Shown here piece by piece: positions 16,227 through 21,919 of a stretch of 64,000 nt of DNA. Both the position numbers and the translations under genes were made by a program. The notes under the pieces are model-generated. The model did no database searches. It was not told where the DNA came from and saw nothing but the letters and a program-made list of their open reading frames with translations. Position 1 is the stretch's first letter; every line of letters begins with the position of its first letter. The stretch is from Candidatus Methylobacter titanis (lineage in GTDB: Bacteria; Pseudomonadota; Gammaproteobacteria; Methylococcales; Methylomonadaceae), in contig JAQSDX010000013.1 of NCBI GenBank assembly GCA_029946125.1, forward strand, positions 1-64,000. The letters are read 5' to 3'.

Positions 16227-17486
16227 ATGGCTGAGATAACTGAAGTACCTAGCCCTTTTTGCGGTATCGGCACCGATGACCTGACTATTCAGGTTGATGG
16301 TGTACTGCTTAAGGTGGTTAAAAACGGCTGTGCGGTTAATACGCCTGCTTTTGAGCAGGCTATTACCGATATTCGTCCAAGAGTCGATGGCAAGGAAGTC
16401 GGTCTGGATGTAGCCGTGACTAAGGCTGCAGCGTTATTAAAAGATACTAATCTACCGGTTATCGGCGGCTGTGCTACTGATGTGAACGGCATGCGGGCGT
16501 TGTTGGCCTTGGCTGACCGTAGCGGCGCGGTGGTTGATAACATGAATTTTACCGGTGCGCGGAATAATTTTCTGGCTTTGCAGGATTCCGGCTGGATGAA
16601 TACCACGTTGGCGGAAGTAAAAAACCGTTGCGATTTGTTGCTGGTGGTTGGTGTCGATCTGGAAGGCTTTTCGCCGCGCTTTTTTGAGCGTTATCTATGG
16701 AATGAAGAATCCATGTTTCTGGAAGATACCGGCAAGCGCGAGGTTATTTACCTAGGCAAAGCGCCTTCCGGTAACGCTTCCACTTCGCCTAGTGGCCAAA
16801 AGGCACTGGTTTTTGAATGCGCAAATGAAGACTTGCCGGATGTGGTCGCGGTATTAAGGGCGCAGGTCAAAGGCAATCCGATTCGGGTCGATTCAGTTGG
16901 CGGTATTGCGGTGGCCGATTTGCAGGCTATTGCCGACAAATTACTAGCGGCCCGCTACAGCGTCGTGACCTGGGCAGCCGACGCGTTGGCCTACAGTCAG
17001 GCCGAATTGACGGTGCAGACCATTTCTGAAATGGTTAAGGATATTAACAATCAGAATACCCGTAGTTCCGGTTTGCCGTTAGGCGGCAAAGAAGGCGATC
17101 AGACCGCTAATCAGGTTTGCGGGTGGACCACCGGTTATCCGGCGCGTACCCGTTTTTCCAGTGGCTATCCTGAATATGATCCCTTTTTGAATGACACCAA
17201 TTTGTTGTTGGCCAATGGCGAGGCAGATGCTTTGGTATGGGTTCAGGCGTTTAATGCCAAAGCAGCTCCACCGGTAACAAGTTTGCCGACTATTGTATTG
17301 GGTCGTTCGGGGATGACCTTTGCCAAAGAGCCGGATGTGTTTATCCCTATCGGTACGCCGGGTATTGATCATGCCGGCCACGCTTATCGTATGGATAACG
17401 TGATTGCGATACGGTTGAAAAAATTGCGCGAATCCGGTCTACCTAGTACGTTTGACGTGCTGAATGCCATTGAACAAGCTTTGTAG
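16227..17486 (+). CDS. fhcB: Formyltransferase/hydrolase complex subunit B
   Basis: A 419-residue homologue of formylmethanofuran dehydrogenase subunit B, here the B subunit of the Fhc complex of methylotrophic bacteria. Fhc releases formate from formyl groups carried by methanofuran, the last step of tetrahydromethanopterin-linked formaldehyde oxidation in the cytoplasm. The start CGIGTDDLTIQVDG, the middle GGCATDVNGMRALLALADRSGAVVD and the region QVCGWTTGYPARTRFSSGYPEYDP fit the family. The archaeal FwdB/FmdB has a molybdenum or tungsten cofactor and iron-sulfur ligands; bacterial FhcB is shorter and catalytically reduced, and I see no cysteine cluster. AAAGGA precedes the ATG. First gene of the fhcB-A-(orf)-D-C operon. 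Confidence 0.9.
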   Translation: MAEITEVPSPFCGIGTDDLTIQVDGVLLKVVKNGCAVNTPAFEQAITDIRPRVDGKEVGLDVAVTKAAALLKDTNLPVIGGCATDVNGMRALLALADRSGAVVDNMNFTGARNNFLALQDSGWMNTTLAEVKNRCDLLLVVGVDLEGFSPRFFERYLWNEESMFLEDTGKREVIYLGKAPSGNASTSPSGQKALVFECANEDLPDVVAVLRAQVKGNPIRVDSVGGIAVADLQAIADKLLAARYSVVTWAADALAYSQAELTVQTISEMVKDINNQNTRSSGLPLGGKEGDQTANQVCGWTTGYPARTRFSSGYPEYDPFLNDTNLLLANGEADALVWVQAFNAKAAPPVTSLPTIVLGRSGMTFAKEPDVFIPIGTPGIDHAGHAYRMDNVIAIRLKKLRESGLPSTFDVLNAIEQAL

Positions 17487-17594
17487 GCAGAAATATGCGC
17501 TTCGGCAATTGCTCTTGCATTGCTCTATTACAGGCCATCGATGGCCTTAGGCAATTTCTGTACTCATTACATCCATGTAACTCGGAAAAATAGT

Positions 17595-19262
17595 ATGTTG
17601 ATAAAGTTAACAGGCGGAGCTGTCTATGATCCCGCAAGCGGGATTGATGGCGCAAAACAGGATATTTACATTCAGGACGGACGCATCGTCGACAAGCCCG
17701 CCGGCGATTTTAAAGTCGATAAAGAATACGATTTAACAGGCAAGGTGGTGATGTCCGGCGCGATTGATATGCATACGCATATTGGCGGCGGTAAAGGCAA
17801 CATTGCCAGAATTTTGTTGCCGGAAGATCATCGGGCCGATCCTGTCGCTCGTACCGATATTACCCGTTCCGGCTGCGGTCATGCTATGCCCAGTACTTTT
17901 GTGACCGGCTATCGTTATGCAGAAATGGGTTATACCGCCGGTTTTGAACCGGCCGTATTGCCGGTCAACGCGCGTCAGGCGCATATGGAAATGGCCGATA
18001 TTCCGATTCTGGATAAGGGCGGTTATGTGTTGATGGGCAGTGATGATTATTTGCTGCGCATGTTGACCGCGAAAAAAGATCAGAAAGCCATTAATGACTA
18101 TGTGGCCTGGACGATGCAAGCAGCAAAAGCCATCGGCGTTAAAGTCGTTAATCCCGGCGGTATCAGCGCGTTCAAATTTAACCAGCGCAAACTGGATCTG
18201 GATGAACAAAACAGCCATTACGGCGTGACTCCGCGCGATATTCTGCGGGTATTGGCGACGGCCGTTAAGGAGCTGGGCATTACTCATCCATTACATGTGC
18301 ACGGCTGTAATCTGGGTGTGCCCGGCAACATGAATACCACGCTGGATACCATTCAAGGCATAGGCGGCTTGCCGATGCATTTAACCCATATTCAGTTTCA
18401 TAGTTATGGTACCGAAGGAGATTTCAAGTTTTCCTCGGGTGCGGCCGAGATTGCCGAAGCGGTCAACAAAAATAAAAACATCACTATCGATGTCGGGCAG
18501 ATTCTGTTCGGTCAAACGGTAACCGCGTCCGGCGACAACATGCGCCAACATGCCAATCATAAGCATGCCAGCCCGAATAAATGGGTGACCATGGATATTG
18601 AATGTGATGCGGGTTGTGGTGTTGTGCCGTTCAAATACAAAGATAAGAATTTTGTCAATGCGCTGCAATGGGCAATCGGCTTGGAAACCTTCTTATTGGT
18701 TGATGATCCTTGGCGTATTTTTCTGACCACCGATCATCCCAACGGCGCGCCCTTTACCAGTTATCCGCATTTGATCCGATTGCTGATGGATAGAAGTTTC
18801 CGTAACGAGGTGTTATCCACGATTCATCCTGAAGCGCAAAAAATGACCACCCTGGCATCGATTGAGCGCGAATACAGCTTGCAGGAGATTGCGATTATGA
18901 CTCGTGCCGGAGCCGCCAGACTGATTGGCTTGCAAGATCGCGGCGGCTTGAGCGCCGGTAACTGGGCGGATATTACCGTTTATACCGACAATGTCGACCG
19001 GCAGCTTATGTTCGAAAAACCGGATTATGTGTTCAAGGACGGTGAACTGGTGGTGGTTGACGGCAAAGTCGTGCATACCAAATGGGGTACGACCCATGTC
19101 GTTAAGCCTGACTGGGATGCCTCGGTGGAAAAGGATTTACAGAAATATTTTGATCGGTTCCTGACCATGAAGCTCGGCAACTTTAAAATCAGTGATGATG
19201 AAATAACTGAGGATGGGCGCGGCAGTTTGACGGTGCATCCGCTTAAAGGAGATGTGGCATGA
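17595..19262 (+). CDS. fhcA: Formyltransferase/hydrolase complex subunit A
   Basis: An amidohydrolase-fold protein of 555 residues, homologous to formylmethanofuran dehydrogenase subunit A. I chose the ATG at 17595 because MLIKLTGGAVYDPASGIDG is the family N-terminus; the frame extends to 17520. Metal-binding signatures are visible: DMHTHIGGGK, PLHVHGCN, THIQFHSYG and TTDHPNGAPF. It is the hydrolytic subunit that converts the formyl group to formate. It follows fhcB after about 108 bases containing no other gene. The gene following it in the operon is not fhcD but a small membrane protein. Confidence 0.92.
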   Translation: MLIKLTGGAVYDPASGIDGAKQDIYIQDGRIVDKPAGDFKVDKEYDLTGKVVMSGAIDMHTHIGGGKGNIARILLPEDHRADPVARTDITRSGCGHAMPSTFVTGYRYAEMGYTAGFEPAVLPVNARQAHMEMADIPILDKGGYVLMGSDDYLLRMLTAKKDQKAINDYVAWTMQAAKAIGVKVVNPGGISAFKFNQRKLDLDEQNSHYGVTPRDILRVLATAVKELGITHPLHVHGCNLGVPGNMNTTLDTIQGIGGLPMHLTHIQFHSYGTEGDFKFSSGAAEIAEAVNKNKNITIDVGQILFGQTVTASGDNMRQHANHKHASPNKWVTMDIECDAGCGVVPFKYKDKNFVNALQWAIGLETFLLVDDPWRIFLTTDHPNGAPFTSYPHLIRLLMDRSFRNEVLSTIHPEAQKMTTLASIEREYSLQEIAIMTRAGAARLIGLQDRGGLSAGNWADITVYTDNVDRQLMFEKPDYVFKDGELVVVDGKVVHTKWGTTHVVKPDWDASVEKDLQKYFDRFLTMKLGNFKISDDEITEDGRGSLTVHPLKGDVA

Positions 19263-19290
19263 TCATTTGCAGCTTTATGGGTAATAAATA

Positions 19291-19587
19291 ATGACTACAT
19301 TAGCCTTTGATACCTACGCGTACATTCGTAAGCTGAAAGAGTCAGGTATAACCGAGGATCAGGCGCGAGCGCAAGTGGAGGCGCTGAGCTTGGCTCTTGA
19401 GCAATTTCAATCTGAATTGCACTTGTCCGAGTCTGCTAACAAGCAGGATGTTAGAGAATCTGAATTAAAGCTGGAGTTGAAAATTGCTGAAACTAAAGCC
19501 GAATTGGTTCGCTGGATTGTTGGAGCCGGATTTTTACAGACGGCCTTGATCGCCGCATTATTAATTAAACTGAGCGCTGGAATATGA
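19291..19587 (+). CDS. CCDC90/DUF1640-like coiled-coil membrane protein
   Basis: A 98-residue protein with an N-terminal helical region (FDTYAYIRKLKESGITEDQA), a long coiled coil of about 45 residues rich in Glu, Leu and Lys, and one C-terminal membrane helix (WIVGAGFLQTALIAALLIKL). This architecture matches the bacterial CCDC90/DUF1640 family, related to the mitochondrial MCUR1/FMP32 coiled-coil proteins; bacterial function is unknown. It lies inside the fhc operon between fhcA and fhcD. Its TGA overlaps the fhcD ATG (ATGA), so the two are translationally coupled. No strong Shine-Dalgarno precedes its own ATG. Such genes are common elsewhere in proteobacteria; insertion inside the fhc operon is the odd point. 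Confidence 0.8.
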   Translation: MTTLAFDTYAYIRKLKESGITEDQARAQVEALSLALEQFQSELHLSESANKQDVRESELKLELKIAETKAELVRWIVGAGFLQTALIAALLIKLSAGI

Positions 19588-20480
19588 TTATTAACGGTGT
19601 AGTTATAGACGCAACTTTTGCCGAAGCGTTCCCGATGAAGGCCACGCGTGCCATCATCACCGCACAGAATGAAAAATGGGCAATGATTTCGGCGCAAGCC
19701 ATGACCGGTTTTGCCACTTCGGTGATTGCCTGTGGCTGTGAGGCGGGGATTGAGCGGGTTCTTGATCCTTCCGAAACCCCGGATGGTCGACCCGGCGTAT
19801 CCATTATGATTTTTGCGATGGGCGGTAAAGGCTTGGCCAAGCAGCTTGAAACGCGGGCAGGGCAGTGCGTATTAACCTCGCCGACTTCGGCCTTGTTTGC
19901 AGGCATTGATGGCGGTACACGCATAGCCTTGGGTAAGAATTTACGTTATTTTGGTGACGGCTTTCAGGTGGCTAAGCTCATTGACGGCAAACGTTATTGG
20001 CGCATCCCGGTCATGGATGGCGAGTTTTTAACCGAAGCGACTACAGGGCAAGTTGATGCAATAGGCGGAGGCAACTTTCTGGTGTTGGCGGAATCGCAAC
20101 CGCAAGCGCTAGCGGCCTGCGAGGCGGCGATTGAAGAAATGCGTAAAATTCCCAATGTGATCATGCCTTTCCCCGGCGGTGTGGTGCGTTCCGGTTCCAA
20201 GGTCGGTTCAAAATATGCGGCTTTAGGCGCGTCAACCAATGACGCCTTCTGTCCGACTTTAAAAGGCATGACCAAAACCGACCTGTCGCCGGAAATCGAA
20301 TCGGTCATGGAAATCGTTATCGACGGTTTAACCAAAGAAGATATAGCTAAGGTTATGCGTGTGGGTATTCAGGCGGTTTGTGATTTAGGCTCGAAGAATG
20401 GCATCAAGCGCATTAGTGCGGGTAATTACGGTGGCAAGTTGGGGCCGTTCCACTTTCACTTACAGGAGATTATGGCATGA
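19584..20480 (+). CDS. fhcD: Formylmethanofuran:H4MPT formyltransferase (Ftr/FhcD)
   Basis: A 298-residue Ftr-family protein that moves the formyl group between tetrahydromethanopterin and methanofuran (or its bacterial analogue). Recognisable segments are the start MIINGVVIDATFAEAFPMKATRAIITA, the ACGCEAGIE region, GGGNFLVLAESQPQAL and the end SAGNYGGKLGPFHFHLQEI. The length fits the family at about 300 residues. The ATG overlaps the stop of the preceding small gene, and the stop overlaps the ATG of fhcC, so the genes are co-translated. It works in complex with FhcA, B and C. Confidence 0.93.
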   Translation: MIINGVVIDATFAEAFPMKATRAIITAQNEKWAMISAQAMTGFATSVIACGCEAGIERVLDPSETPDGRPGVSIMIFAMGGKGLAKQLETRAGQCVLTSPTSALFAGIDGGTRIALGKNLRYFGDGFQVAKLIDGKRYWRIPVMDGEFLTEATTGQVDAIGGGNFLVLAESQPQALAACEAAIEEMRKIPNVIMPFPGGVVRSGSKVGSKYAALGASTNDAFCPTLKGMTKTDLSPEIESVMEIVIDGLTKEDIAKVMRVGIQAVCDLGSKNGIKRISAGNYGGKLGPFHFHLQEIMA

Positions 20481-21292
20481 GCGCTTTAACCTTTACGCTG
20501 AAACAACAACTTGATCAGCGCGTGGACATGTCTCCGCTGGTTTGCCAGAAACTGGCTGATTTGGCGCTCACTGACATTGCCGCGCTCACCTTGCAGAATG
20601 GCAAGCGTAACATCCGCGTCGATGAGTTATTCGGTATTACCGGTTCTGATACACAAAACATCGTGATAAAGAACAGCTTTGGCAAGCTTGATTTTATCGG
20701 CAAGGAACTGGATGGTGGGTGCATAACGGTCGAAGGCGATGCAGGTGCTTATCTGGGTTTAGGCATGAAGTCCGGCGAGATTCAAGTGTCGGGCGATGCC
20801 GGGCTTTATGCGGCCTGCGAAATGAAAAAAGGTTTGCTAAAAATTAACGGTAATGCCGGTGATTTTTTGGGTGCAGCCTTACCCGGCAATAAAATGGGCA
20901 TGAAAGGCGGAACTATTCTGGTTAAGGGTAATGTCGGTGAACGCGCCGGGGATCATATGCGTCGAGGCAATATCCTGGTTGAAGGTAATGCCGGTGATTA
21001 CTGCGGCTCCAGAATGACGGCGGGTACTATCGCGGTCATGGGGCAGACCGGCAGGTATTTGGGTTTTGCGATGCGCCGGGGGACGTTGTTGTTATGGAAT
21101 CAACCGCAGACGTCGGCAAGATTTAATGATTGCGGTGCGCATACCTTGGCGTTTTTACCGATATTGTTTGCCTCATTTAGCCAGCTTGATTCCAGGTTTG
21201 CAGACAGTTCTGCGGCCTTTAGCCGGGTGCATCGTTATGCTGGCGATATGTCGGAAATGGGGCGTGGCGAAGTATTGGTTAAAATAGGCTGA
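20477..21292 (+). CDS. fhcC: Formyltransferase/hydrolase complex subunit C
   Basis: A 271-residue beta-helix protein homologous to the formylmethanofuran dehydrogenase C subunit, related to the GXGXG domain of glutamate synthase. Repeating turns with glycine at regular spacing are clear (GDAGAYLGLGMKSGEIQVSGDAG, GNAGDFLGAALPG, GNVGERAGDHMRRGNILVEG). It is the scaffold subunit of the Fhc complex. The ATG overlaps the fhcD stop and has AGGAG upstream. It is the last gene of the operon, followed by a strong terminator. Confidence 0.92.
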   Translation: MSALTFTLKQQLDQRVDMSPLVCQKLADLALTDIAALTLQNGKRNIRVDELFGITGSDTQNIVIKNSFGKLDFIGKELDGGCITVEGDAGAYLGLGMKSGEIQVSGDAGLYAACEMKKGLLKINGNAGDFLGAALPGNKMGMKGGTILVKGNVGERAGDHMRRGNILVEGNAGDYCGSRMTAGTIAVMGQTGRYLGFAMRRGTLLLWNQPQTSARFNDCGAHTLAFLPILFASFSQLDSRFADSSAAFSRVHRYAGDMSEMGRGEVLVKIG

Positions 21293-21370: not shown

Positions 21371-21919
21371 CTAGATTTTTCCGTCCAAGCCCATCTGGAA
21401 ATATTTGTGGATAATTTTATCCTGATTTTCCAGCAGCCAATCGATATTCGGCGTGTTATTCATGGCCTTATGAATGGCTTGTGCCATGGCTTTACGGTGG
21501 ATGTCGAAAAGAATCTGGTGGTCCAAATTATCATCTGTAGCCACACTCGGATTTAACCAAACCGAGCAGATAATACCTAGATCATTGGCTTTTTCTTTTG
21601 GGATATCGCCGGCACGCACGGCATCGAGTACGCCGTTAGCAATAGCGGCCTGTACAGTGCCCATTAGAATATTGGTGTAGCGGCTGTTGTTGACCGTTAC
21701 CTTGCTGACCATTAGTGTTACGGGGCGTACTTGAATATCCGTATTTAACAGAGCAAAGACTTTGGAGTGGCCTTTAGCTTGATTGCCGGTCAATGTTGCC
21801 AGCGCAATACCGACAGGGCCATCAAGTTCGCCGATAATGACTTCAGGTTCTGCTGCGGTACCCGCTGGGCCGCCCGCAATCAGCGCTTCACCGGTGCGGA
21901 ATATGATTCTTTCGCTCAT
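21371..21919 (-). CDS. Formaldehyde-activating enzyme (Fae) paralogue
   Basis: A 182-residue Fae-fold protein. The family pattern is clear: TGEALIAGG at the start, VIIGELDGPVG, TLMVSKVTV and a C-terminal helix. Canonical Fae condenses formaldehyde with tetrahydromethanopterin and uses a histidine in the segment AHIDLIIG. At the aligned position this protein has glutamate (AEPEVIIG), so it may not be a normal Fae and probably belongs with the Fae-like paralogues of unknown role. It is convergent with the fhc operon across a shared terminator, which supports a C1-related or regulatory role. A GGAG lies eleven bases upstream of the ATG. Confidence 0.8.
   Translation of the reverse strand: MSERIIFRTGEALIAGGPAGTAAEPEVIIGELDGPVGIALATLTGNQAKGHSKVFALLNTDIQVRPVTLMVSKVTVNNSRYTNILMGTVQAAIANGVLDAVRAGDIPKEKANDLGIICSVWLNPSVATDDNLDHQILFDIHRKAMAQAIHKAMNNTPNIDWLLENQDKIIHKYFQMGLDGKI

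Follow-up and report, generated by a model that had tools for sequence, protein, structure and literature searches.

The fhc operon is the operon of formaldehyde oxidation, which is core to methylotrophy. In the window analyzed in this study (the whole stretch of 64,000 nucleotides from Candidatus Methylobacter titanis), its gene order is fhcB, fhcA, CCDC90, fhcD, and fhcC, all on the plus strand, and the third of these encodes a small protein of the CCDC90/DUF1640 family. The locus raises the question of whether this protein belongs to the Fhc complex, which it was initially proposed to tether to the membrane, or whether its gene is a guest in the operon.

Gene organization of the fhc locus

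The genes fhcB, fhcA, fhcD, and fhcC were assigned by NCBIfam equivalog models. The features of the locus are as follows:

16227-17486, plus strand: fhcB (TIGR03129, 343.2 bits, above the cut-off)
17595-19262, plus strand: fhcA (TIGR03121, 781 bits; ATG at 17595, product beginning MLIKLTGG)
19263-19290, plus strand: 28-bp spacer from the fhcA stop to CCDC90 (junction comparison)
19291-19587, plus strand: CCDC90-like/DUF1640 gene, probable guest, 98 aa (PF07798, 36.4 bits; dN/dS 0.083)
19306-19428, plus strand: head segment, residues 6-46 (PF07798 match, alignment, and model; aligns with the head of 6h9m)
19429-19449, plus strand: neck, residues 47-53, ESANKQD (alignment; helix break at 47-53 in a low-confidence model)
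19450-19512, plus strand: coiled-coil stalk, residues 54-74 (alignment)
19516-19572, plus strand: predicted membrane anchor, residues 76-94, IVGAGFLQTALIAALLIKL (Kyte-Doolittle 1.99)
19567-19584, plus strand: operon-specific tail KLSAGI, codons AAACTGAGCGCTGGAATA (junction and tail comparison)
19584-19587, plus strand: ATGA stop/start overlap of CCDC90 with fhcD (sequence)
19584-20480, plus strand: fhcD (TIGR03119, 456.6 bits)
20477-21292, plus strand: fhcC (TIGR03122, 272.3 bits)

The mechanically called fhcA ORF starts farther upstream, at 17520, than the ATG at 17595 given here. The CCDC90 ORF runs from an ATG start to a TGA stop and shares four bases with fhcD, where its TGA meets the fhcD ATG at 19584; the 98-residue ORF and its stop overlap had been correctly described in the initial annotation. 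The tail codons coincide in position with the ribosome-binding region of fhcD, and the 28-bp spacer begins with TCATT, resembling the fhcD start of empty sites. A scan for promoters and terminators between fhcA and fhcD gave results no better than shuffles. The operon direction and phase of the gene, together with the overlap between its stop and the start of fhcD, make co-transcription with fhc and expression probable, and fhcD would not be blocked.

The gap between fhcB and fhcA (17487-17591) is 105 bp, compared with about 5-12 bp in the majority of the other Methylobacter examined, and contains a short dispersed repeat (about 26-30 bp, 17498-17527) with 15 more partial matches genome-wide. 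Directly past fhcC, a gene for formaldehyde-activating enzyme (fae, 21371-21919) lies on the opposite strand.

Family and architecture of the CCDC90-like protein

The family PF07798 (CCDC90-like/DUF1640) takes in MCUR1, CCDC90B, yeast Put6/Put7, and bacterial DUF1640 proteins. The 98-aa product matched this family with 36.4 bits (cut-off 33.5), which bears out the assignment made initially, and all 31 aligned relatives matched it with E-values of 0.001 or better. Additionally, a profile of the 31 relatives matched the structure of human CCDC90B (6h9m, E 2.3e-5). The window protein has the head motif FDTxxxxxxLxxxGxxxxQA, neck, coiled-coil stalk, and C-terminal membrane helix of the family, but it is short (98 aa) and differs in its neck, SANKQD, and in its operon-specific tail. 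The Fhc family models gave no match to the CCDC90 protein.

A single hydrophobic segment was found at residues 76-94 (mean Kyte-Doolittle value of 1.99 over 19 residues). In a monomer model of low confidence (pLDDT 62), helices were predicted at residues 8-17 and 22-46 in the head and at residues 54-96; the interruption at the neck is what a head-neck-stalk-anchor arrangement would give. The one helix at 54-96 together with the hydrophobic segment corresponds to a stalk and anchor of the DUF1640 type, in agreement with the coiled coil and one C-terminal membrane helix of the initial annotation, and suggests that the protein is located at the membrane. The stalk was 7 residues longer in G172 and G088. 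According to PMC4786415, DUF1640 proteins have a beta-layer motif, [aliphatic]-A-T-K-[polar]-[DE], where the stalk begins; at this place most relatives read ATKxD, and the window protein reads SANKQD.

Purifying selection and phylogeny of the operon copies

The dN/dS ratios were calculated for eleven operon copies (the window and ten other genomes; 53 pairs). The median pairwise value for CCDC90 was 0.083, compared with 0.077 for fhcB, 0.040 for fhcA, 0.020 for fhcD, and 0.070 for fhcC, and the dS of CCDC90 was like that of the neighboring fhc genes. The low dN/dS held throughout the protein, and residues of the head and of the anchor were conserved among CCDC90 copies. These values indicate strong purifying selection on CCDC90, like that on fhcB and fhcC, and that CCDC90, where present, functions as a protein and is passed on together with the operon. 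Because same-place orthologs give a median of 0.083 over the 53 pairs, the stretch 19291-19587 is not a chance ORF. A strain-specific oddity was also ruled out by same-place orthologs in M. tundripaludum SV96 and other Methylobacter.

A tail of the form K-[LVM]-S-[ASN]-G-[IL] was common to the operon copies and absent from the other copies examined. On a weak tree, the operon copies fell into two groups, and a single clade was not rejected (AU p 0.305).

Occupancy of the fhcA|fhcD junction

Of 101 family genomes searched for fhcD, 100 yielded the gene, and the DNA upstream of it was read; with 7 further genomes added for CCDC90 hits or genus, 83 fhcA|fhcD junctions were readable. CCDC90 or a remnant of it occupied 15 of the 83, in 11 cases alone and in 4 (one being the remnant) with other genes, while 47 junctions were empty and 21 held other genes. 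Among the 76 junctions not picked for CCDC90 or genus, 47 were empty, 9 held CCDC90, and 20 held other genes. Nearly all empty junctions had a 4-bp ATGA overlap, and more than one junction state was found in 9 of 25 genera. The interruption of the usual fhc order that was noticed initially is thus real, but it is not peculiar to one operon, with 36/83 junctions of the family interrupted. The survey suggested at that stage placed the gene beyond one strain, at the same position in Methylobacter and four other genus-level groups; near-identical loci include, among the named ones, those of M. tundripaludum SV96 and a Candidatus Methylobacter oryzae MAG.

Guests with Pfam names were ParE, Phd/YefM-like, VapB+PIN, DUF4160+DUF2442, DUF433+DUF5615, HepT+nucleotidyltransferase, HicA+DUF1902, YafQ, Uma2, and methyltransferase genes, accompanied by some ORFs without a name. 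The non-CCDC90 guests were mostly toxin-antitoxin-type pairs; DUF4160/DUF2442 is the domain pair of DhiTA, which PMC8198452 reports as a toxin-antitoxin system. All recognized guests were in the operon direction, and plus-strand ORFs made up 45-95% of each insert.

Unlike the fhcA|fhcD junction, the two other fhc junctions take no guests: none was found at fhcD|fhcC in 96 loci (4-bp overlap in 93/96) or at fhcB|fhcA in 39 loci (gap of -14 to 145 bp in 39/39). The fhcA|fhcD junction contained no gene in any of ten genomes from outside the order. Sister families within the order showed no CCDC90 at this junction, fhcA being outside the 1.5 kb read in eight of their loci, and had two Uma2-like genes there. 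These comparisons mark the fhcA|fhcD junction as a hotspot for guest genes. As in chromosomal hotspots of toxin-antitoxin guests, variable small genes stand between two conserved genes and are missing in relatives with empty sites. However, the fhcA|fhcD junction belongs to a metabolic operon, and the genes on either side of it normally have a 4-bp overlap; its recognized guests are operon-directed, and CCDC90-only inserts stop within the fhcD start codon. In the titles, abstracts, and passages of the literature searched, no paper was found that describes this CCDC90 gene or the junction.

We consider it likely that the gene is a horizontally mobile member of the CCDC90 family, residing in phase as a guest in the fhc operon, and that its own function is not related to Fhc catalysis.

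Relatives away from the fhc operon

Five paralogs (E below 0.01) were identified in the genome of the window, on other contigs and none at fhc, some of them near a DUF4160 or TacA1-like ORF. Across the order, 106/201 genomes had a CCDC90 match. Named relatives outside the order were mostly from Geobacteraceae/Desulfuromonadales, with 37-59% identity over most of the protein. Relatives were also present at 59 loci of IMG/VR contigs, and the phage family phrog_17872 matched all 31 aligned sequences. A tblastn search of phage records gave no CCDC90 match, and plasmids gave three weak ones. The neighbors of other CCDC90 copies were toxin-antitoxin-type, phage, and ordinary housekeeping genes.

CCDC90 genes were often closely paired (L026, L028, L156, L158, L160, and L166; C96 and C111 among the genome's own contigs). 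A second recurrent CCDC90 site is possible in L025, L027, and L030, where CCDC90 is followed in the same direction, after about 80-120 bp, by a gene for a product of about 406 aa; from its ACT/AA_kinase matches, this seems to be an aspartate kinase.

These neighborhoods could be read as those of an addiction or defense element (a phage-exclusion protein, for instance, or a single-gene toxin acting on the membrane); this would explain why CCDC90 has its landing site and neighborhoods in common with toxin-antitoxin pairs. Its paralogs occur near DUF4160, DUF2442, HigB, HicB, DUF433, and Mu-type phage genes, and the phrog_17872 and IMG/VR matches point the same way. We regard this explanation as unlikely: no match was obtained with the PADLOC defense models, there is no constant partner gene, and many paralogs have ordinary housekeeping genes as neighbors. 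In eleven genomes, CCDC90 stands alone between fhcA and fhcD, unlike a type II toxin-antitoxin module with its adjacent toxin and antitoxin genes.

Gain, decay, and replacement of CCDC90

Within Methylobacter, junctions with CCDC90 alone (G000, G106, G159, G115, G136, and G172), CCDC90 plus toxin-antitoxin genes, toxin-antitoxin genes alone, and no insert were all found. In G112, CCDC90 is followed by VapB-like, Phd-like, and ParE-like ORFs. In G054, it has lost its head and start and is followed by an unnamed 281-aa ORF and VapB/PIN, and in L155 it shows an in-frame loss of about 26 head residues, its end also being lost; fhcABCD is intact in both. Genes of the Phd/ParE type alone occupy the junction in G015 and G131, and G074 is empty, with fhc intact in all three.

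In another genus, CCDC90 is present in G098, G020, and G138, and G069 and G114 have a spacer of 34-35 bp with a worn CCDC90 3' end, a scar of roughly 24 nt. The scars agreed with the CCDC90 3' end in 21/22 and 23/24 aligned columns, and 0/2000 shuffles were as good. Since these spacers hold a worn copy of its 3' end, CCDC90 was most likely lost in G069 and G114, with its tail left before fhcD. Because the junctions of relatives are empty, filled by toxin-antitoxin genes, or scarred, CCDC90 looks like a maintained guest rather than a required part of the enzyme. The initial statement that it is not a random insertion holds in that the gene is in phase and maintained, yet the comparison does show an insertion.

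The same comparison bears on the idea of a lineage-specific accessory subunit, which, in Methylobacter and its allies only, would anchor or organize Fhc at the membrane, close to the oxidation of methane and methanol. The CCDC90 gene has its operon in common with FhcABCD, in phase, with a dN/dS of 0.083 and a dS like that of the fhc genes, and most sampled Methylobacter genomes retain it there. Selection and retention in five genus-level groups exceed those of a neutral passenger and count against the guest reading, and the operon-specific tail and the clustering on the tree would also fit a lineage-specific Fhc partnership. However, rather than in all or most fhc operons, the gene occurs in 15/83 (9/76 without the chosen genomes), and the congeners G074, G015, and G131 do without it. 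G054 has a truncated copy and L155 one with a deletion in the head; elsewhere, unrelated genes (toxin-antitoxin-type, Uma2, or methyltransferase) take its place, and the unlinked paralogs of the same genome have the same architecture. An Fhc tether, as put forward initially, would have to be a recent and dispensable habit of a few genera. The comparisons speak against it, and we regard an accessory subunit as improbable, slightly more so than an addiction or defense element.

That the CCDC90 end serves as a regulatory spacer, giving fhcD a weaker or coupled ribosome-binding region and adjusting the FhcD dose, seems very improbable: the tail codons do lie over that region and the scars of G069 and G114 retain just that part, but a spacer would have no need of a conserved protein, and dN/dS is low along the whole protein, with conserved head and anchor residues.

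A guest-gene model for the fhcA|fhcD junction

Under the guest-gene reading, a CCDC90/DUF1640 member would have entered the junction in an ancestor that Methylobacter shares with its allies among the Methylococcales, or on a few occasions within that group. The insert would have settled in the direction and phase of the operon, with its last codons over the fhcD ribosome-binding region and its stop overlapping the fhcD start. Rather than for Fhc catalysis, the protein would be kept by selection for its own function at the membrane, one common to its many unlinked paralogs. In related species, toxin-antitoxin-type pairs and other small genes use this junction as their landing site. More tentatively, fhcA|fhcD of Methylococcales might be a standing landing site, where phase-keeping small genes are exchanged between species and stabilized by the importance of the operon, with CCDC90 genes as single-gene membrane guests whose lifestyle resembles that of toxin-antitoxin modules.

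This model replaces the unsupported idea of an Fhc tether with a testable one, namely that a single junction repeatedly takes small selfish-type genes. The cases of gain, decay, scar formation, and replacement, of which several fall within a single genus, offer a natural experiment on how guests enter operons with translation unbroken. An Fhc-related function should not be inferred for small genes at fhcA|fhcD.

Other observations on the junction

The ribosome-binding leader AACAATGAGCATAACAAT of toxin-antitoxin-filled sites was considered as a worn CCDC90 tail and rejected: its spacing is similar, but its likeness is that of shuffles (p 0.05-0.93). The first 60 nt of fhcD in Methylobacter agreed at 0.91-0.96 among toxin-antitoxin carriers, compared with 0.88-0.91 to CCDC90 carriers; this difference, small and fading, only hints that the toxin-antitoxin insert was imported along with the 5' end of fhcD.

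In G146, G151, G154, G168, G180, and others, fhcA and fhcD are on different contigs or loci, so the fhc operon is split at the fhcA|fhcD junction in those lineages. In addition, fhcD and fhcC of L123 (G199) seemingly form one open frame of 620 aa, a possible fusion.
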